A DNA stretch of 64,000 nucleotides from Opitutales bacterium (GTDB lineage Bacteria; Verrucomicrobiota; Verrucomicrobiia; Opitutales; Oceanipulchritudinaceae): assembly GCA_016932335.1 (NCBI GenBank), contig JAFGCZ010000005.1:1-64000 (forward strand), read 5' to 3'. Below the pieces are notes generated by a model that did no database searches, was not told the DNA's origin, and saw only the letters and a list, made by a program, of their open reading frames with translations. The position numbers and the translations under genes are program-made. This document shows positions 48,937 to 59,233 of the stretch, piece after piece (within the stretch, counting starts at the first letter, position 1; each line of letters starts with the position of its first letter).

Positions 48937-50007
48937 ATGGCAAAGATTTTAGTAGCATTGTCCGGTGGTGTCGATAGCGCAGTAGCTGCCCATCTGTTAA
49001 AAGAGCAGGGGCACGAGGTTTCTGCTGCCTATATGAAAAACTGGATCAACGAGGAAAATGTTTTTGGTAATTGCCCCTGGGAAGAGGACATCAGAGATGC
49101 GGAAGCTGTTTGTAAGCATCTGGAAATTCCTTTTGAAGTGGGAAACTTCATAAAAGACTACCGCGAACGCGTCGTACAATACCTTGTTGAAGGTTACAAA
49201 AAAGGAATTACGCCTAATCCCGATGTTATGTGCAACCGGGAAATGAAATTCGGTGTCTTTCTGGATTATGCCCTTAAAAATGGTTTTGAGGCAGTGGCTA
49301 CAGGCCACTACTGCCAAAGTGTAATTGATGCATCAGGGATCAATCAGGTTTATGAAGGCATCGATAAAAACAAGGATCAGTCGTATTTCCTCGCTCTAGT
49401 TAAAGGAAATCAGATGGACCACGCCCGTTTCCCTATAGGACACCTGCAAAAAACAGAAGTGCGCAAGTTGGCAAAACAGGCAGGCTTACCGAATGCCGCC
49501 AAAAAGGATTCACAGGGGATCTGTTTTATCGGCCAAGTTAAAATCACCGATTTTCTCGAAAAATTCATACCAGATAATCCAGGCGAAATAGTCAATCTGA
49601 ATGGCACCGTATTGGGAGAGCACAAAGGCCTGCACCGCTTTACCTTAGGCCAGCGCAAAGGCATCGGGGTTCCTTCCAACACAGACAACCAATTCTATGT
49701 GGTTGTCGGCAAGGACTATGACACTAACCGCCTGATCATTGCTTTTGAGAGCAATGAGGAGAACGGACTTTATTGCACGGAAAAGCGAGTGCATTCGCTC
49801 AGCTGGATTCGAGACAGTATAACAGATAAATGTAAGTTGCTCGCCCGTCCCAGATACAGAGACCCATCGGTAGTTAGTGACTTCAGACCTCTGGAAGACG
49901 GAAGCATCCACTTGACATTCCACGAGCCCCAACGGGCAATCGCTGCCGGGCAGATCTGTGCGTTTTACGATAATGAAAGACTTCTGGGCGGAGGTGTTTT
50001 CTTATAA
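48937..50007 (+). CDS. mnmA: tRNA 2-thiouridylase MnmA
   Basis: MnmA puts sulfur on U34 of Lys, Glu and Gln tRNAs. The 356-residue protein has the PP-loop ALSGGVDSAVAA, the NCPWEEDIRDAEAVC segment, and the two active cysteines, one in DVMCNREMKFG and one in DSQGICFIGQ. ATG 48937 starts the family's N-terminus; the frame from 48895 adds unrelated residues. Its last 6 bp overlap the convergent HEAT-repeat gene. A tRNA-Lys(TTT), a target of the enzyme, is also in the window. Confidence 0.96.
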   Translation: MAKILVALSGGVDSAVAAHLLKEQGHEVSAAYMKNWINEENVFGNCPWEEDIRDAEAVCKHLEIPFEVGNFIKDYRERVVQYLVEGYKKGITPNPDVMCNREMKFGVFLDYALKNGFEAVATGHYCQSVIDASGINQVYEGIDKNKDQSYFLALVKGNQMDHARFPIGHLQKTEVRKLAKQAGLPNAAKKDSQGICFIGQVKITDFLEKFIPDNPGEIVNLNGTVLGEHKGLHRFTLGQRKGIGVPSNTDNQFYVVVGKDYDTNRLIIAFESNEENGLYCTEKRVHSLSWIRDSITDKCKLLARPRYRDPSVVSDFRPLEDGSIHLTFHEPQRAIAAGQICAFYDNERLLGGGVFL

Positions 50008-51723
50008 GCCAATTGCTTTCAATGCGGCTTTGGCCGCTCTCCCGACTTCTGCATCCGTATCCTGTATGCGACTGCTCAGGAACTCTGCAGCGGCCTGTGC
50101 AGATAGCCCACATTTACCCAGTGCGTCGATTACGGAGAGGCGAAACTCTCTGTTCTGATGGCGGATAAGCTCCCTGACAACGGGTAAACATTCGGTATTA
50201 AAACCGACTGATGCAAAGGCTGTAGCAGCGGCATCTCTTGTAATACGGTCGCTGTCTCCCAGACGTCCGCAAATCAATACAATCCCCGGTCTGGCGTCAT
50301 GCTCCATTTGTTCAAACAAATTGAGCAATAGAAGCTTACGGTCTTGCTTTGAATTCCGCAAGATGCGCTCGGCAATCCCCCACGCTCGATCATTGACCCC
50401 CGTCTGCAACAGTGTTTCCGCCGCCAAGCGGGCGATTTCAAAAGAAGTCTCTTCAATTCTGGCCATCACCAAATGGCTTAGAGGATAAGCCTTGTGTCCT
50501 AAGGCTCCAAACATTTCAAGCACTCGCTTTCTGCAGGACAAATCTTTATCTGTCAGCAAAGCTTTAACAAAAGGCTCTGCTTTTTCAGATAGCTCCAAAC
50601 GAACAAAGAGTAAGCGTGCAATCTTGCGCACTTCCGGCTCTGGATCAGCCACTGCCGTGGATACAATCGCGAGAGCCTCATCCAATACCTCTGGATGCTT
50701 TCCAATCACCTCCAGAGCTTTCTTCCGGTAGGTCCATTTAGGGTGGCGGGAAAGCTTTAGCAGCGCTTTAATGCAATCCGGCGTAACACCAATACAATCA
50801 ATCGCGTACTCTGCGGCGGAGGTTATGTGTTCATCTGTATGAGCAAGTAAATCGACTAAGACAGGGCTTAAATCCCGGGCTGAACTGTCACACTGGGAAA
50901 GCAGTTTAATCATGATCAGGCAACGCTCAACAGAGCTATGATCTAGCTGACGTTTGATTTCCTTAATCGCCGAATAATGATAACCCAGTTTGCTGAATGC
51001 GTCTGCCGCAGCGTTCCTGATCTCCTCAACAGGATCATTCAAACGCGGAACAATCAAATGAAGTAAAGGAAGTGCTTTGGAATCACATTCCGAAAAAACA
51101 GAAATAGCGCTCAATCGAACCGTTGCATCGCTGTCGCGGATTAGTAGAGAGGCAACGTGAATGGCATCCTGTGCAACCCCTATCCGACGCAGGCAATTTG
51201 TGATTTCAGGTAAACACACAGGACAGCTTTTGATCAACGGGATTACATACTTGGAAGCATCACGGGCCTCATCTTCCAAACGCCCCAACGCACTCAGCGT
51301 TGCTTGAATGACTTCAGGCCTTTTCGGGTCCAACAGTGGATAAAAACAACTGAGATCCTTTTTCCTCGGTGGCATGAAATTGAGTGCACTGAGCGCCTCA
51401 CTGCGGACTGTTTCGCTTGAATCGGCTAATGCCGCAATCGCATGAACCGCTAGGCGGCGATAATCCAAATCGCACTCTTTCAACAATTTTAATCCAGACG
51501 TACGAACAACAGGGTCTGAACTCTGCAATGCTTTCAGCAAACGCTTTTCCATACGGGAAATCTTTACCTTAAGCGCCAGCGTTCCACCATCGCCTTGTTC
51601 CTCAATACCCACTTCGACAGGAGCTGGTGCTTCTTTAGAATCCACATCCTGCGACAGGACACCATGGCGAGAGGTATAGATCAGCTCACCGGTTTCGGGG
51701 TTGAAGATAAGACGTTCAGCCAT
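50002..51723 (-). CDS. HEAT-repeat protein with N-terminal PETGEL motif
   Basis: The 573-residue product is mostly HEAT repeats, alpha-helical pairs of about 30-37 residues from about residue 50 to the end (for example DPVVRTSGLKLL, DPEPEVRKIARLL and DTDAEVGRAAKAAL). Such solenoids are protein-binding scaffolds. The first 20 residues carry RLIFNPETGELI, also found in the 62-residue protein two genes upstream. A linker with Gly and Pro follows. ATG 51723 is in the junction TGATATG after the E1 stop. ATG 51750 is possible. Its role is not known; it could be an adaptor or target for the E1/E2 system. Confidence 0.85.
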   Translation of the reverse strand: MAERLIFNPETGELIYTSRHGVLSQDVDSKEAPAPVEVGIEEQGDGGTLALKVKISRMEKRLLKALQSSDPVVRTSGLKLLKECDLDYRRLAVHAIAALADSSETVRSEALSALNFMPPRKKDLSCFYPLLDPKRPEVIQATLSALGRLEDEARDASKYVIPLIKSCPVCLPEITNCLRRIGVAQDAIHVASLLIRDSDATVRLSAISVFSECDSKALPLLHLIVPRLNDPVEEIRNAAADAFSKLGYHYSAIKEIKRQLDHSSVERCLIMIKLLSQCDSSARDLSPVLVDLLAHTDEHITSAAEYAIDCIGVTPDCIKALLKLSRHPKWTYRKKALEVIGKHPEVLDEALAIVSTAVADPEPEVRKIARLLFVRLELSEKAEPFVKALLTDKDLSCRKRVLEMFGALGHKAYPLSHLVMARIEETSFEIARLAAETLLQTGVNDRAWGIAERILRNSKQDRKLLLLNLFEQMEHDARPGIVLICGRLGDSDRITRDAAATAFASVGFNTECLPVVRELIRHQNREFRLSVIDALGKCGLSAQAAAEFLSSRIQDTDAEVGRAAKAALKAIGL

Positions 51724-51724
51724 A

Positions 51725-52951
51725 TCAGACAGCACAGCAAAGACACTCATTGTCTTTGCAAACATCCACACCATACCACCTCATAATACTATTGCGATTA
51801 TAAAATGCCTTCATGGGTAACCACTTCTCATAGATCAACTCTCTTCGGTTGGCCCAAATATAAAAAGGCATTGATAAATCCTCCTCCAAAGAAGACATAG
51901 GCAGCTCAGTAGTTCTACTCAGCTCAACCAGAGCCAGTTTTACCGACATCTGCACGATGGGGAGAATGTCTACACTTAGACCAGCCTGTATACGGGCGCC
52001 GATATCAGTATTACTCATGTATGCTGGAGCATCCCTTCGCGACTGGACTTCTGTGGAGATCTCATCAGCATTTCCGTAAAGCCCCTGACCAAATAAACAG
52101 GCCAGACACGGACCTCCCGGACGATAGCAAAAAACATCCCCTCCGGCGGCACGCGTAATCGCCCTGGAAAAAATAGCCGGTGTAGATTGTCGAACAACCA
52201 ACTGGTTTGTATTGAGCCGTGAACGTTTCTCATCGGTCACACATACAACCAAATCAGACTGCTCAATCTGCGCTTCCAACTCGCCAAGATGCTCATTTAC
52301 ATCAAAAGGAAAGGCATTCACTATAATGGAAGGATTTTTCCGAAGTACAAGCTCTCTTACGGCATCTACCTTTAAACGTCCAAGGTCATTAATTCCACAG
52401 GGATGACGGTTGATATTTTCGGGCTCAATTCTGTCAGGGTCAAACAAAGCCAGATGCCCTACCCCGCTTTTTGTCAATTCCAAGGCAATGGGCGCACCAA
52501 AGCTGCCTAATCCAATAATGCAGACGCTTTTACGTGCAAGCGAATCCACCTCAATCAAGCCTCGACTTCTGGAATGGAAATCACCTTTTTTTTTGACTGA
52601 AACAACTTCCGCCCGAACAAAGCAATCAGCGCGGTCCCGGTAATAGCAAACAGCAGAAGAATCATCAGCCCCCAGCACCAAGAGAACAAATTCCACATCA
52701 TTGCCCAACGGCATTTTTTGGCAGAACTGTCGAAAATTTTCACCCTCGTCCATTACCATGGAATCCGGTGATACAAGCAACAATCCCTTAGCCTGTTCTG
52801 CATAAGGTGAAACCGGAGTCGGGTTCAAATAAAAATGAGCAACCGATTCTGCTCTAAACACATACACAACAGCACAGGCTTGAAGTAATTCTTTTTTCCC
52901 TGACTCCCGCAAAAAAGAGCGGAGCTGCTCTTCATAAAAATAAACACGCAT
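51725..52951 (-). CDS. E1-like (ThiF/MoeB family) ubiquitin-like activating enzyme
   Basis: The 408-residue protein has a ThiF adenylation domain from about 140. It has the nucleotide loop GLGSFG (147-152), D171, an arginine in ENINRHP (R182), K194, and D240 in CVTD. Two CxxC pairs (C282/C285 and C403/C406) can hold zinc. C275 is a candidate catalytic cysteine. The N-terminal 135 residues form an unrecognised alpha/beta domain. E1 enzymes adenylate the C-terminus of a modifier. Next to an E2 and a JAB gene, a conjugation role is favoured over thiamine or molybdopterin synthesis. Confidence 0.88.
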   Translation of the reverse strand: MRVYFYEEQLRSFLRESGKKELLQACAVVYVFRAESVAHFYLNPTPVSPYAEQAKGLLLVSPDSMVMDEGENFRQFCQKMPLGNDVEFVLLVLGADDSSAVCYYRDRADCFVRAEVVSVKKKGDFHSRSRGLIEVDSLARKSVCIIGLGSFGAPIALELTKSGVGHLALFDPDRIEPENINRHPCGINDLGRLKVDAVRELVLRKNPSIIVNAFPFDVNEHLGELEAQIEQSDLVVCVTDEKRSRLNTNQLVVRQSTPAIFSRAITRAAGGDVFCYRPGGPCLACLFGQGLYGNADEISTEVQSRRDAPAYMSNTDIGARIQAGLSVDILPIVQMSVKLALVELSRTTELPMSSLEEDLSMPFYIWANRRELIYEKWLPMKAFYNRNSIMRWYGVDVCKDNECLCCAV

Positions 52952-52959
52952 AGAAGACC

Positions 52960-53148
52960 TTAGAGTGCGGCAAAACCATCTGTGGCAATTTGATCCACCG
53001 TTGTGGCATCCGGATTCATGGGAAGATCGTTGCGACGGACGACCAATTCTCCGGTTTCCGGATCGAATTCGAGGCGATTCATAGTAACTTCGCCTTTATT
53101 CCTAACAACTAATTCCTTTCCGATTTTATTTGTATCGTTCTCCGACAT
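52960..53148 (-). CDS. Small PETGEL-motif protein, candidate modifier
   Basis: This 62-residue product is not recognised. It contains ELVVRN near residue 12 and ELVVRR near residue 34, an imperfect repeat, around MNRLEFDPETGEL. The C-terminus is ATDGFAAL, not Gly-Gly. ATG 53148 has GGAG six bases upstream; an inner ATG at 53082 would start the protein exactly at the motif. It lies between the E2 and E1 genes, where ubiquitin-like proteins often sit. It may be a small beta-rich modifier, a substrate, or a tag donor. A strict beta-grasp fold cannot be shown by eye. Confidence 0.72.
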   Translation of the reverse strand: MSENDTNKIGKELVVRNKGEVTMNRLEFDPETGELVVRRNDLPMNPDATTVDQIATDGFAAL

Positions 53149-53149
53149 A

Positions 53150-53578
53150 TCATACTCCAAGGTATTCAGTTAAGGGACGCCCCGTGGTGAGGTGATTTTC
53201 ATACGCTTCCAACCAAATCAGGCATTTTAAAGCCACTTTGTAGAGCGTTACATTGGGATGCCAGTTTTCCAGTTTATAATGGCAAAGTTGCAGGACTCCA
53301 GCCTGTGGCGCCAGAGTATGCATCGCATGGGACGGTGAGATATCGGCCAGAAGCTCCCCTCGATAGGTTCTCAATGTGTCAGGATAGTTCAGCAACACTA
53401 TAGGCACTGATGCCGGATAATCCCGGGGAATTCTGATTTCGATACGGTAAACCTTACCAGCACTGGTTTTCATCCCCATATCCAACGATAGCTCCTGGCC
53501 CTTTTTTTTAAATAAAAAACGCCCCGGGAAGTTTCGTTGCAAAATAGCGTACTCGATATTGTAGCGTTGCTTATCCAT
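53150..53578 (-). CDS. E2-like (UBC fold) conjugating protein
   Basis: The 142-residue protein has the UBC layout: an N-terminal helix, strands, the DYPASVPIVLL segment that matches the YPxxPP region of E2 enzymes, H87, and C99 in LQLCHYKLENWHPNVTL. The C-then-W-x-P pattern and the following helix IWLEAYENHLTTG are typical of prokaryotic E2 families. C99 should take a modifier from E1 as a thioester. Its ATG overlaps the JAB stop (8 bp) and its TGA is followed by the next ATG after one base. Confidence 0.87.
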   Translation of the reverse strand: MDKQRYNIEYAILQRNFPGRFLFKKKGQELSLDMGMKTSAGKVYRIEIRIPRDYPASVPIVLLNYPDTLRTYRGELLADISPSHAMHTLAPQAGVLQLCHYKLENWHPNVTLYKVALKCLIWLEAYENHLTTGRPLTEYLGV

Positions 53579-54377
53579 GAGGAGGGATTTTTATATCGCA
53601 GAAATGAGCGTTTGGATCAACCCAGTAATAGGGTTCATCCGGAAAATGAGATGGTATCACCAAATTGCTCCTTTTATCATCTTTGCTGCAAACAAAAACA
53701 ATTTGCTTAAATTGGTTCTGTTGCATTACCACGGTATCGCACTGCAAAGACAAAGAATCATATACTTGCTGCAACCACGTTCGACCATCAGAGCCGGATA
53801 ATAGATCAGAAACTGAGGCCAGTTCTTCCGGTGTTCTTTTATGTTCAGGAGGACAACAAAGAGGTAACTTAGCCCTCTCTTCTGTCCGGCATGAAAATGG
53901 AGAATTTCCCGCTAGAACAGTCCAATGCAGACCATTTCGTAAATCAGGCTCTCTATAAAGGAATGAATGCAAAGCCGGAACAAACAATTCATCCAAAGTA
54001 GCAATCAGTAAACAAAAACGAGAAAGACCATACTTACTCATTGCAGAATAAATAGTTCTATCATCGTGATTACTTGGCAAAGAAAGCCCCAGACAATGGT
54101 GAGAATGCCATTGTCCGATATGTTGGAGTCCATGTGCTTGCTGGAGACGCAGGCCTTCTTCCGAAAGAAAGGCGACATCCTGATAAAAACTGGTGCGATC
54201 GGCCCGAGCATTTTCACCGGGACCAATCACACGTTGAACTACAGGACATCCCTGATGCGTCCATAACCCAAAGCAATCGCCGCCAGTTTCTTTGTCCGGA
54301 AACTGGACAACCTGCTGCGAGATAGCACACAGCTCGCTCTCGTAAATGTATATTCTGTCAGGAATATAGGTGGGCAT
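53571..54377 (-). CDS. JAB/JAMM-type metalloprotease (deubiquitinase-like)
   Basis: The 268-residue protein has the JAMM metal site: E30 in the strand before GGDCFG, H91 and H93 in QWHSHHCLGL, and S102 with D105 in LPSNHDDRT. The spacing fits active MPN+ proteases, which mature or remove ubiquitin-like proteins at an isopeptide bond. About 110 extra residues follow the JAB domain and are not recognised (Cys-rich, ending with CDIKIPPHG). It starts 15 bp after the PilB-type gene and overlaps the E2 gene. Confidence 0.88.
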   Translation of the reverse strand: MPTYIPDRIYIYESELCAISQQVVQFPDKETGGDCFGLWTHQGCPVVQRVIGPGENARADRTSFYQDVAFLSEEGLRLQQAHGLQHIGQWHSHHCLGLSLPSNHDDRTIYSAMSKYGLSRFCLLIATLDELFVPALHSFLYREPDLRNGLHWTVLAGNSPFSCRTEERAKLPLCCPPEHKRTPEELASVSDLLSGSDGRTWLQQVYDSLSLQCDTVVMQQNQFKQIVFVCSKDDKRSNLVIPSHFPDEPYYWVDPNAHFCDIKIPPHG

Positions 54378-54392: not shown

Positions 54393-56177
54393 TTAGTGTC
54401 CGTGGTTATCGGAAAGAACTTCTTCCAGCGTTGCCGCATTGCGGATAAAGTCCAGATCCTCAAGGTCTGGTGGTACGGTGGCCAGCGCTTCAACCATAGT
54501 CGAAAGCCCCTCACGCACCTTCAACATAGAGTCCTGGTGTAAAGTCCTCATTCCATTCCGGATAGCAATACGCTTTAGCTTGGCAGCTTCCATACCGCTG
54601 TTGATTCCCTTGATGAGGTCCTCACTGATGGCCATCAACTCATGGATACCAACACGCCCTTTGTAGCCTGTTCCATTACATACCGGACATCCATCGTCAC
54701 ATGCACGGTAAACTTCGCCCGTCCATCCGATGGCGCGCTGCATCAACTCCGCCTCTCTGCCTTCGATTACATATTTTTGTTTACAGCTCTTACATACACG
54801 GCGCATCAGACGCTGAGCACAGATACAAACCAAAGAAGCAGAAATCATAAACGGCTCAATTTCCATTTCCGTAAGTCGGGAAATAGTGGATGGAGCATCA
54901 TTTGTGTGCAACGTACTGAAGAGCATGTGACCTGTAAGCGCCGCTTCAACCGCAATTTGAGCCGTTTCAGTATCTCGAATTTCCCCCACCAGAATAATAT
55001 CAGGGTCCTGACGAAGAAAAGCACGCAGTGCCGAGGCAAAGGTAAGACCGATTTTTCGATGCATTTGCATCTGACAAAGGCCCGGAAGCGTATATTCAAT
55101 AGGATCTTCAGCAGTTCTGATAACAGTATCCGGATCATTGATTTCGTTCAATGCGGAATAAAGAGTCATGGACTTACCGGAACCGGTAGGACCACAGTGC
55201 AGTACCATCCCATAAGGACGCGTAATCAGAGAACGATAAAGCGATAGATTTTCTTCGGAAAAACCAAGAGCAGTCAACGGCAGCGTCGATTTCTGTTTAT
55301 CTAGGATACGCATAACAACGCCTTCCCCATGGTTCAGTGGGGCGGTTGAGACACGAAGGTCAAGATCCAGACCTTTTCGATTGAACTGCTTATAGACAAT
55401 ACGTCCGTCCTGAGGTAACCGTTTTTCCGCAATATCCAAATTTGACATAACCTTCAGGCGGGCAATCAGCGTTGCACAAATTTTGGGTGTGATGTGCAGC
55501 TTTTCACGACAAACGCCGTCAATACGCACGCGTACGCGGGCAGCATTTTCAAATGGCTCAATGTGGATATCACTCCCTCCTGAAAAATAGGCATCTTCAA
55601 TTATTCTGTTAGCCAACTGTACGATGGGAGCAGAGTCTTCTTCAATATCTGTCTCATCAATATCAGTCTTATTAGAATCATCTCCAGAGTCTTCCCCAAA
55701 GGCGGCAACTACATCTGAAAAGTCCTCCGAATGCATCTGCTGCTTATCTTCCTTAAGAAGATCATCAAGAACTGATTTATCAGCCAAAAGAGGTTTAATT
55801 TTCAACCCAGTCAGCTCATGCACTCTGGAGGTTATGCTGAGATTGAACGGGTCGGCCAATGCCAGCACGATATGGTCTCCCAGTTTGCAAATAGGGAGCA
55901 CTTTATGCTCACGGCAAAAATCGACATCCAAATACTCGTGAGTGCGTTCAGTTCGCAAAAAACTTTTTGCATTGAAAGGAACAAAATCGAATGCGCGGCA
56001 CTTCGCCATCAGGATATCAAATGGGCGAATTTTGTATTCGCGCATGAGCAGATTTTCCAGCTCATCCCCCGACATTTCATCAGGACTGCTGATCAATACC
56101 TGAACCTGATCAGTGGAGAGCTTGCTGCGATCCTGAAGCGCTTGAATAATGGTTTTTTGAAGTCTTGCCAGAGCCAT
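54393..56177 (-). CDS. PilB/GspE-type secretion or pilus assembly ATPase
   Basis: The 594-residue protein has an N-terminal MshEN-like domain and an ATPase core with the Walker A motif [11 protein letters not shown], Asp box [25 protein letters not shown], and His box [12 protein letters not shown] zinc-type CKSC plus [12 protein letters not shown] motif pair is present. Such ATPases drive type IV pilus or type II secretion assembly. ATG 56177 has AAGGAGG about nine bases upstream; the 56186 frame uses GTG. pilC, pilM and pilin genes are absent from the window. The JAB gene follows after 15 bp. Confidence 0.93.
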
Positions 56178-56178
56178 A

Positions 56179-56682
56179 TCAGGCACCCTCCTTTACACTG
56201 GATTCAAGTTGTTCAAAAAGCAGCTCCAAATCACTGAGCGGGCTGAGATTCCAAACAATATCGGAACCGACCCTCTCTTCCCAATATTCACGAACAAAAG
56301 GGCTCAGGTAGTAGGCGGTTGAAAGAAAAGGCACACCACAAACACTCTCGGCCGGGACGGTCCAAGTGGCCAACATTTCCTGAACAGAAAACTCACTCAT
56401 ATAGGCCGGATCAATCTTGTAAGCTGGAAGATTCAGCGCGCCGATATCGAATGAGTCCAACTGATAGCTCAGCAATGCATCCTCACTTAAGCTCTGCTCT
56501 TCAAAACAAAGAATTTTTAACAGCGATAACCGGGCCTGGGTTTTATCTCTACGTCGCTCGAGATATCTTGCATTGGCTGATTCCAGTTGTTGCAGTGTGA
56601 TCAAACCGCGGTCAACCAGCTGCATTCCCAGAAAGCGGTTCGCCTTAAGGCTCACACTCCCCATGTTACGTTCTATGCTCAT
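56179..56682 (-). CDS. Small MshEN-like protein
   Basis: A 167-residue protein with [20 protein letters not shown], which resembles the MshEN or GspE N-terminal pattern LGELLVExGLITxEQL seen in PilB-type ATPases. The rest is acidic and Leu-rich and is not recognised. Its TGA is followed one base later by the ATPase ATG (TGATATG). It could be a separate regulatory subunit that duplicates the ATPase N-terminal domain. ATG 56682 fits; ATG 56664 would also work. Confidence 0.68.
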
Positions 56683-56720
56683 TTTGAAAGGATCCTTTGG
56701 TATAAATGACGGTATGTAGG

Positions 56721-57941
56721 CTACTCGGTAGCCAATAGCTCCGGGTAGAGGAAATCTTGTTGCTGAAGTGAAGTATCAGGAGAAAGAAGGTTTCGATCAA
56801 TATCTAAACGCTCTAAAACATCATCCAATTCAGTCGTTCCCACACGCTGCAAAATATTTTTCTGCTCGGAATGCAGTAAAGAAGTCATGCTTACAGAACC
56901 ATGCCCCAACTCCATTCGATCCGTTAAGAACCGCGTGAAACCACTTATACGCTGAGCGGCATCGCGCCGAGACAAGCGCATCAACACCAATTTTAACTCC
57001 CTAAAGTTATCCTTCCATGGATAAGCCAAAAGCTGCTGCAGCAACTCAGGATCATTAATATGGGCCTCACCACGCAAAAGCTCCGAATCAATCAGGGCTG
57101 CAATATCCCCCGCCCTGCTGCGCAGCAAAGGAAACTGCAGAATGGAAATGGACGCATCGTCAATCTGAGCTTTTTTCTGGAAGCGAAAAATAAGTTTTAC
57201 GTTACGGGTCTGCCATTTGGAGACAAACTCCTCTGTTAACAATGCCGGCAGAGCTCCTATGGACGCATCCAACATTTCAATCAGGATCAGGCGGTCCTTG
57301 GTTTGATCAATAATCAACCGAATGTTTTTCAACCAGGAAAAGAAACCAAGACGTATACAAGGGACATCAAATGAAGCCCATCTCGCAACTTGTTTACAAA
57401 CAAGATCCATCTCATGACCGTCCTCTGCAAAAACCAGTCCTATGCCCGAGTTATCCAGTTGCCCCCACAGAGCCTGCAGAAAACGAACCATTGCCGGGCT
57501 TTTTCCCAAAAAAACATCTATTTCTCCGGGGAGAGAGACCAGTTTGCTTTTTTTCAGAGAAACAGAAGCTTCAGGCTGTTTAGGGGAAATAAAATGGGCC
57601 ACATGCTTGAGCAGTTGCTCTCGCTGAAAGGGCTTCTCCAAGGCAAGCGTAACCCCGATATTGGCCACACGCATTAAATCAGGTGTATTCATCAACCCCG
57701 AAACGATAATAACAGGCAGAGCAACATTGATTTCTCTTACTTTTTGGAGAAATACATCTCCATCCATCTCAGGCATTTTGAAATCGGCAATTACCAACGA
57801 ATAGTGCTTGCTACGGATTTGCTCCAATGCCTGATGAGGATTTGTCGATACCTCAGCATCATATCCTTCTGCAAGCAGAAGCCCCTGTATCATTTCGGCA
57901 AAATTTGCTTCGTCATCAAGAACCAGAATGGTGTTGCTCAT
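56721..57941 (-). CDS. Response regulator with degenerate AAA+ (NtrC-like) domain
   Basis: The 406-residue protein has a full receiver (D53 in VIADFKMPEMDG, K103 in LEKPF). It is followed by an NtrC-type region that kept the outline (LGKSPAM at 145, FPLLRSRAGDIAAL at 270, YPWKDNFRELKLVL at 307) but lost Walker A (FAEDGHEMD), Walker B (LILIEML) and the GAFTGA loop. No C-terminal DNA-binding helix is seen. It probably cannot hydrolyse ATP or activate sigma-54, and may act as a protein-binding phospho-switch. Its start overlaps the upstream gene by 4 bp. Confidence 0.87.
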   Translation of the reverse strand: MSNTILVLDDEANFAEMIQGLLLAEGYDAEVSTNPHQALEQIRSKHYSLVIADFKMPEMDGDVFLQKVREINVALPVIIVSGLMNTPDLMRVANIGVTLALEKPFQREQLLKHVAHFISPKQPEASVSLKKSKLVSLPGEIDVFLGKSPAMVRFLQALWGQLDNSGIGLVFAEDGHEMDLVCKQVARWASFDVPCIRLGFFSWLKNIRLIIDQTKDRLILIEMLDASIGALPALLTEEFVSKWQTRNVKLIFRFQKKAQIDDASISILQFPLLRSRAGDIAALIDSELLRGEAHINDPELLQQLLAYPWKDNFRELKLVLMRLSRRDAAQRISGFTRFLTDRMELGHGSVSMTSLLHSEQKNILQRVGTTELDDVLERLDIDRNLLSPDTSLQQQDFLYPELLATE

Positions 57942-59233
57942 TGCTCATCCTCCAGAAAACCATTCCATAGCCCAGAGGAGCAGGCCAAAGCCTCTGCTCC
58001 AGTGTCAGGATTTCCACTGAGGACCAGAACGGCCTTAAGAATTTCATCCCGCTTTTCCCTGAGCATATCTTTTAGGGTCCCGGAATTCCCGACCATTTGC
58101 ACCATAGTTAAGCGACCATCATAGGCTGCCTTGAATGTCTCCGAATCAATCTCTCCCGGAGAAATCATCTTGCCAATATTGCCTGCCAAATTTTTCAAAG
58201 GCAACATTTCCAGTGAATATATACCCGAAACCATCTCCTGTTCCAGCGAATCAGAGAGTGTGTAGATTTTGTCACCATCCAGAGATGAGTTAAGATACTG
58301 CAGGAGAAGAAAAGGGCTCTCTTCTACTATTTCAGTAAGCGCAGGCACTTTGATCTCGGTGGTTCCAAGGAAGATATACGTATCTTCATCAATAACCTCA
58401 TCATCCAGCAAGTTGTCCACGCCGCGATCCAACGCAATGACACAGCGCAAATCGCAATCAGGAAGCATCTTCTCAACAACAACCTGCTTAACCAAATTCA
58501 GCAAATGCATGCTGCTCACATCCACGGCGGAAACTAAAATAGTCATTTCCGATTTCCCCTGAGCGGTCACTGTCAAATCTTTAAGAAGTCCGTCAGCATC
58601 TTTGTATTCATCAGAAACGACAAAAAGGGAATCTGAGTCCTTCTCTTCCATCGCCAACAGATCACGACACACCAGCTCATAATCACAATCAGATGAACCG
58701 ATTAACAACAGGTTTGTCGTAAAATTCTTCTTGGAGAAAAGTGCCTTGGCAAATTCAATAGAAGCTGCAGTTACACAGGCAAAGGTGGTAAAACGAAACC
58801 CGAGAGAATGACTGCTCCCGGCCACGCCGCTTTTTTTCTTTATGGAAACAAAAAGCCCCTGCTGTTTTTTTTCGATGAGTTGCTGTGTCTTCTTCAGCAA
58901 CTGAAATACATTGAGAGGTTTGGCAAACACTCCGCCGACCCCCGTCTCAATCAGCTCTCTTACCGTGTCACTTTCCAAATGACCTGAAACCATAATAATA
59001 GGAAGACCCGGAAGACGCTGAAGCACTTCTTTGGCAAATTCCGACCCAGAGGCTCCCGGTAAGCGTTGGTCGGTGACCAACACATCGATAGACTCATCTT
59101 TGTTTTGGAATTCCTGAAAGCCCTCCTCCGCAGAAAAGCAAGAGATCACTTCATACCCGGCCTGACGGTAAACATCCGTCAGGAGCGTATTGAAATCGGA
59201 ATCATCATCAACAATAAGAACGCGGTTAGACAT
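57938..59233 (-). CDS. Response regulator with highly degenerate NtrC-like C-terminus
   Basis: The 431-residue protein opens with a receiver (VLIVDDDSDFN, D55 in VLVTDQRLPG, S83, K105). The remaining 300 residues are poorly conserved. They resemble a decayed NtrC AAA+ module in layout: a YLNSSLDGD-like region and LPLKNLAGNIGKM where family members have PGNVREL. No P-loop or DNA-binding helix is visible. The pair with the next gene looks like an old duplication. It leads the nine-gene cluster, 84 bp after obg. Confidence 0.82.
   Translation of the reverse strand: MSNRVLIVDDDSDFNTLLTDVYRQAGYEVISCFSAEEGFQEFQNKDESIDVLVTDQRLPGASGSEFAKEVLQRLPGLPIIMVSGHLESDTVRELIETGVGGVFAKPLNVFQLLKKTQQLIEKKQQGLFVSIKKKSGVAGSSHSLGFRFTTFACVTAASIEFAKALFSKKNFTTNLLLIGSSDCDYELVCRDLLAMEEKDSDSLFVVSDEYKDADGLLKDLTVTAQGKSEMTILVSAVDVSSMHLLNLVKQVVVEKMLPDCDLRCVIALDRGVDNLLDDEVIDEDTYIFLGTTEIKVPALTEIVEESPFLLLQYLNSSLDGDKIYTLSDSLEQEMVSGIYSLEMLPLKNLAGNIGKMISPGEIDSETFKAAYDGRLTMVQMVGNSGTLKDMLREKRDEILKAVLVLSGNPDTGAEALACSSGLWNGFLEDEQ

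Follow-up and report, generated by a model that had tools for sequence, protein, structure and literature searches.

The window, a stretch of 64,000 nucleotides from an Opitutales genome, carries on its minus strand an operon with the gene order JAB, E2, 62-aa protein, E1 and HEAT protein. Its features are:

53571..54377, minus strand: JAB/JAMM isopeptidase-like protein, 268 aa (Prok-JAB E=0.00038; E30, H91, H93, S102, D105)
53150..53578, minus strand: E2-like protein, 142 aa (weak UQ_con/RWD matches; Cys99-His100, upstream His87)
52960..53148, minus strand: 62-aa protein (predicted N-terminal helix, LEFDPETGEL hairpin, C-terminal DGFA plus AL tail)
52969..52980, minus strand: D-G-F-A motif, residues 57-60 of the 62-aa protein (from per-position conservation, tail statistics and relatives)
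52963-52968, minus strand: variable tail A-L of the 62-aa protein, followed by the stop at 52960-52962
51725..52951, minus strand: E1-like ThiF-family enzyme, 408 aa, with an N-terminal domain of ~120 aa (ThiF E=5.8e-29)
50002..51774, minus strand: HEAT-repeat protein, 590 aa as longest ORF (HEAT_2 E=3.4e-29; hairpin motif)
51667..51714, minus strand: hairpin motif at the N-terminus of the HEAT protein (small-protein profile match, E about 0.1)

The ORF at 52960-53148 (minus strand, ATG at 53148, TAA at 52962-52960) translates to MSENDTNKIGKELVVRNKGEVTMNRLEFDPETGELVVRRNDLPMNPDATTVDQIATDGFAAL, 62 aa. A Pfam scan of the operon confirmed ThiF and HEAT and, weakly, JAB and E2; together with the ORF it bore out the preliminary description, which had placed a 62-residue protein between E2 and E1 and had seen no modifier gene of beta-grasp or ubiquitin-like type at 50-54.4 kb. 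A ubiquitin-like gene elsewhere would have spoken against a role for this protein as modifier; none was found beside the small protein, and ThiS (PF02597), the sole ubiquitin-like family scanned genome-wide, gave 0 matches in the host genome (2.1 Mb, 80% complete), with a match in 11 of 14 control genomes. The window operon also contains no CD-NTase gene. Directly upstream and co-directional, 54393-59233 (minus strand) encodes a GspE/PilB-type ATPase, a 167-aa protein and two response regulators.

A search of the phylum gave three other E1 relatives, and the four-sequence E1 alignment retrieved 64 loci from the GTDB collection; the genome contig scan using the window E1 alone gave no match. 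Because conserved E1 peptides served to choose the loci, further lineages may have escaped the search; the genes are mechanical ORF calls. The JAB-E2-E1 order is kept in nearly all 64 loci; by profile search 38 of them have a standalone homolog of the small protein placed between E2 and E1, and in 8 further loci (L016, L029, L034, L040, L042, L047, L050, L054) the small protein forms the N-terminus of E1. Standalone copies were found in Bacteroidota, Verrucomicrobiota, Kiritimatiellota, Fibrobacterota, Cyanobacteriota, Spirochaetota and Caldisericota, and one fused copy belongs to Planctomycetota. The 38 include L059 (Planctomycetota) and L066 (Verrucomicrobiota), which sit in the other E1 branch and match the profile weakly (E=0.02). 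Within the window's own family the small protein is present in L085, L086 and L087 (L085 and L024 are, judged by length and content, one contig). The dN/dS of the small protein was 0.03-0.22 for pairs with a finite ratio, indicating strong purifying selection, and its stop lies -10 to +30 nt from the E1 start in 33/36 cases, so that the two genes are probably translationally coupled. Therefore, with 38 homologs at the equivalent place, purifying selection and a stop near the E1 start, the 62-aa ORF is a real gene. Searches of Pfam (including 34 members scanned), NCBIfam and PADLOC gave no match for the small protein, which represents a conserved, undescribed bacterial family; a literature search, largely without subscription journals, found no paper describing the operon type.

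AlphaFold models the window protein as a helix (residues 4-18), two strands (24-29 and 34-39) and a further helix (51-60), a weak model since the mean pLDDT is 59. Across the family, the predicted order is an N-terminal helix, a beta-hairpin whose motif reads L-x-[FY]-[ND]-P-x-T-G-E-[FL], then a short helix and finally a loose tail carrying the C-terminal motif. The structure prediction proposed earlier as a check returned no ubiquitin fold, Foldseek with this model gave no match below E 2.3, and neither these two nor Pfam on 34 members indicated a beta-grasp; as modelled, the 62-aa protein is not a ubiquitin-fold protein. No Gly-Gly C-terminus was found either, GF[AF] or Y[YF] being what lies near the end of the small proteins. 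The ELVVR repeat of the preliminary description does occur in two copies, one at residues 12-16, within the predicted N-terminal helix, the other at 34-38, within the predicted second hairpin strand; because the copies differ in structure, helix against strand, and are lost outside the nearest relatives, it is not a structural repeat, and we rejected an internal duplication. Designed Kelch proteins, significant PDB matches of the small-protein profile, were likewise set aside as hairpin look-alikes, for the best stretch is the hairpin alone and no single stretch is significant by itself.

Conservation of a Gly or Ala before a variable tail had been proposed as the sign of a processed C-terminus, and the alignment has exactly this form. 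The C-terminal consensus is [DEK]-G-F-[A/F], with Y-[Y/F] in one clade, and a variable tail follows; GF[AF] or Y[YF] is present in 36/38 standalone members, at most 5 residues from the stop in 35 of these 36, and 8 standalone members stop exactly at the motif. F59 is the position of highest information in the alignment (4.1 bits), G58 and A60 are high too, and positions 61-62 are the least conserved (0.5-0.6 bits). The window protein ends ...ATDGFAAL, i.e. GFA plus AL, and three same-family relatives end ...DQIASDGFA with no tail beyond GFA. Where these proteins have Ala, other clades have Phe or Tyr. The motif type tracks the E1 tree: GFA is commonest, GFF occupies the part of the tree shared by Cyanobacteria, a small number of Bacteroidota and the Caldisericota member, and Y[YF] marks the Barnesiella/Treponema clade. 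One small protein (L030:7468-7779) continues after GFA with a 47-aa extension containing a second hairpin, and at their N-terminus those of Fibrobacter (L028:7447-7674, L071:7702-7950) carry an additional segment, 'GFAG', similar to the C-terminal motif.

The enzymes of the operon are conserved at the residues expected for catalysis, except in one respect. JAB E30, H91, H93, S102 and D105 are invariant (56 rows), and conservation in E2 (61 rows) is 0.98 for C99, 0.97 for H100, 0.98 for H87 and 1.00 for W106. The ATP-site residues and two Zn CxxC pairs are conserved in E1 (63 rows), but the same 63 rows hold no conserved catalytic Cys, only the Zn-type Cys 282, 285, 403 and 406, and Cys at 185 and 237 in only 54 and 62% of rows. 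Since E1 lacks a conserved catalytic Cys, direct transfer from the E1 adenylate to the E2 Cys is likely and would be the likeliest chemistry. For a model of a fused E1 relative the nearest solved structures were ThiF, BubCD, Cap2 and MccB.

Among the closest known systems is type II CBASS (Cap2 E1-E2, Cap3 JAB and a CD-NTase donor), which has E1, E2 and JAB in common with the window; the window set holds an E1, the E2 active-site Cys and the JAB JAMM motif. In type II CBASS the cyclase, without a ubiquitin fold, is conjugated via a C-terminal Gly or Ala, the residue that ends the cyclases of Cap2/Cap3 operons; replacing the Gly by Val, Arg or Trp abolished conjugation, and Cap3 cut a linear fusion of two cyclases precisely behind the first of them (PMC10097602). 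The B. cereus cyclase ends KPGGFA, its terminal Ala is joined to PspA lysines, and Cap3 frees the conjugated cyclase with no scar left (PMC11153139). The known donor has no beta-grasp, as predicted for the window protein too; its last residue is Gly or Ala (GGFA in B. cereus), where the window protein has GFA plus AL. Unlike type II CBASS, the E1 branch of the window (branch B) has E1 and E2 as separate genes and an E1 without a conserved catalytic Cys, no cyclase was noticed among the downstream genes listed or clustered, with a 60-aa protein found instead, and downstream genes encode ClpB-like ATPase, HEAT or membrane proteins. Bil/Bub and type 6d/PRTRC ubiquitin-like operons also hold E1, E2 and JAB in a single operon, but they have a beta-grasp modifier, whereas here none is seen and the small protein is predicted not to be one.

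The sister branch of the window operons, mainly from Pseudomonadota and Acidobacteriota and also Planctomycetota, has CBASS cyclase and Cap4/SAVED effector genes. A CD-NTase follows E1 (SMODS E=7e-26 in the one scanned), and these CD-NTases end FG-[A/Q/V] in 9/10. Judged from the CD-NTase and Cap4/SAVED genes after E1, the sister-branch operons are CBASS. CBASS operons with separate JAB, E2 and E1 genes were seen at L010, L055, L056, L058, L061-L063, L065, L067-L070, L072 and L073, from Bradyrhizobium and others. E1 of this branch carries a hyperconserved N-terminal module, IREAMQAIAxRKPGRSKLVYDKTKRTIVAV...NITADDADMF.

From these comparisons we presume, with a probability only just on the favourable side of even, that the 62-aa protein is a dedicated donor without a ubiquitin fold, activated by E1, carried by E2 and trimmed or released by JAB. 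The conserved gene, the C-terminal motif with its variable tail, the intact E2 and JAB active-site residues and the E1 ATP site are observed, and the non-ubiquitin fold is predicted. By analogy with the conjugated CBASS cyclase, the GFA end would point to conjugation. The operon's JAB would cut the flexible tail back to ...DGFA, removing AL, E1 would adenylate the DGFA end, and the small protein would pass to E2 Cys99 and from there onto a lysine in its target or targets; JAB could also free the conjugated small protein, and the helix and TGEL hairpin may serve recognition. We infer the trimming of AL by analogy, and both this and release from E1 fusions have a precedent in Cap3, which cuts exactly at the donor C-terminus (PMC10097602). 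Three findings stand against the donor reading. In eight branch B loci the module is fused to E1, and there the tail would need cutting free; a probable homolog is fixed and highly conserved in the CBASS-branch E1; and the GFF and YY variants would leave bulky C-terminal residues, when Val, Arg or Trp in place of the cyclase Gly stopped CBASS conjugation (PMC10097602). The earlier suggestion of an unusual modifier is accordingly upheld as regards the conserved end, which equals that of the conjugated CBASS cyclase, and weakened by the fused and E1-fixed modules. If the donor reading is true, a free-standing modifier outside the beta-grasp fold can serve ubiquitin-type E1/E2/JAB machinery.

The same fusions speak for the main rival explanation, to which we give a lower though still considerable probability: the 62-aa protein would be an N-terminal module that has become detached from E1 and acts as its stoichiometric subunit for folding, dimerisation or binding of E2 or substrate, whose conserved C-terminus packs on E1 and is never conjugated, the donor being some other protein. 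Well-supported branches of the E1 tree force at least 5-6 changes of the fused/standalone label, hence several independent fusions or fissions of the small protein with E1, and the probable translational coupling agrees with such a subunit. In addition, the CBASS-branch E1 holds a helix-hairpin-like module at the same place with 79% mean pairwise identity, as conserved as the core (76%) and more than the domain after it (43%); the donor in that branch would be the CD-NTase. The homology of this module to the small protein is probable but suggestive only (hhalign prob 17%, P=0.0014), with L059 and L066, at E=0.02 to the small-protein profile, as intermediates, and, if it holds, the module had an E1-bound role that it may have kept; donor and E1-bound roles could coexist. 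A subunit has, however, no need to end like a protein proven to be conjugated, nor to lose conservation so sharply after Ala60. The GF-containing stretch is among the lowest-confidence parts of the fused E1 model (pLDDT <50 at residues 54-57), although in the alignment for this model the standalone rows were cut before F-A and the tail there rests on fused rows only. Further, no other donor was noticed in branch B, and the other branch B operon proteins looked at have no common C-terminus. Even as a subunit, the small protein would define a new family of obligatory E1 partners that none of the three databases named above contains.

The second feature of the small protein lies in its hairpin. 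The window HEAT protein shares this hairpin motif in its N-terminal region, MAERLIFNPETGELIY (LIFNPETGELIY), where the genome gives its only further match to the small-protein profile (E about 0.1). The same-family relative L087 keeps the order E1 then HEAT, with LIFDPATGELI in the HEAT protein. The motif occurs in the first 60 aa of 19/189 downstream proteins, from 15/45 branch B loci, against 0/359 upstream proteins and 0/102 downstream proteins of the other branch; the Fisher P values of 9e-10 (versus upstream) and 2e-4 (versus other-branch downstream) are optimistic, as the regular expression had been drawn up with examples already in view and loci that are related do not count as independent. 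From its sequence distribution the hairpin looks like a system-wide address or docking motif, which suggests that hairpin-bearing neighbours are partners or targets meeting a common docking surface; it is this TGEF hairpin, recurring on neighbouring proteins, that forms the true second feature of the small protein. For the donor reading, the HEAT protein here and membrane proteins in relatives would be such partners or targets. The hairpin on the 19 downstream proteins and on the window HEAT protein would also fit a 62-aa protein that acts as adaptor or target, its hairpin a docking tag in common with HEAT, membrane and other proteins, with its own lysines modified or clients recruited, but this leaves the best-conserved C-terminal tripeptide unexplained, and we regard it as improbable.

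In 17 branch B loci (L019, L021-L023, L025-L027, L029-L031, L034, L035, L040, L041, L049, L057 and L071) E1 is followed downstream by a ClpB/ClpA-like AAA+ ATPase, usually within about 130 bases of E1 and in a few cases with a gene between. Its domains are AAA, AAA_2 and ClpB_D2-small, with Clp_N in one of two scanned, and this neighbour suggests a link to protein unfolding. Pup, of about 64 residues, is mostly disordered, has a conserved C-terminus and feeds an AAA+ ATPase; the small protein is alike in size and build, and branch B often has the adjoining ClpB-like ATPase. The Pup ligase is PafA, a glutamine-synthetase relative and not an E1/E2, so that Pup ligation differs from the E1/E2 of the window, and no PafA/Dop was seen in the window operon. 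We offer only as an unlikely, speculative extension a multi-phylum tag-and-unfold system, in which a loose peptide with a Pup-like build and a CBASS-cyclase-like end would be attached by E1/E2, removed by JAB and read by the ClpB-like unfoldase or by TGEF-hairpin partners. If true, CBASS-type conjugation is linked to an AAA+ unfoldase in other lineages.

Maturation of the MccA/MccB type, where a ThiF-type E1 activates the C-terminus of a peptide that is likewise not a beta-grasp and the product here would be a modified peptide rather than a protein conjugate, is very improbable: no catalytic Cys is conserved in the E1, MccB is among the E1s that it resembles, and radical SAM look-alikes lie near some YY-type loci, but MccA/MccB, which acts on a 7-residue peptide antibiotic precursor, is not known to involve E2 or JAB, the conserved E2 Cys and intact JAMM protease fit a conjugation-deconjugation cycle, and beside the window operon E2 and JAB are found instead of export or immunity genes, of which none was noticed. 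The radical SAM look-alikes themselves lie downstream of E1 in L033, L036, L037 and L039, several in tandem in L036 and L039, near operons with YY-type small proteins.

The viral contig scan with E2 gave no match. The phage collection gave 8 E1 matches, one of them at E 2e-27: the phage record MT836827.1, unannotated and from human faecal samples, contains an E1 relative with 34% identity.
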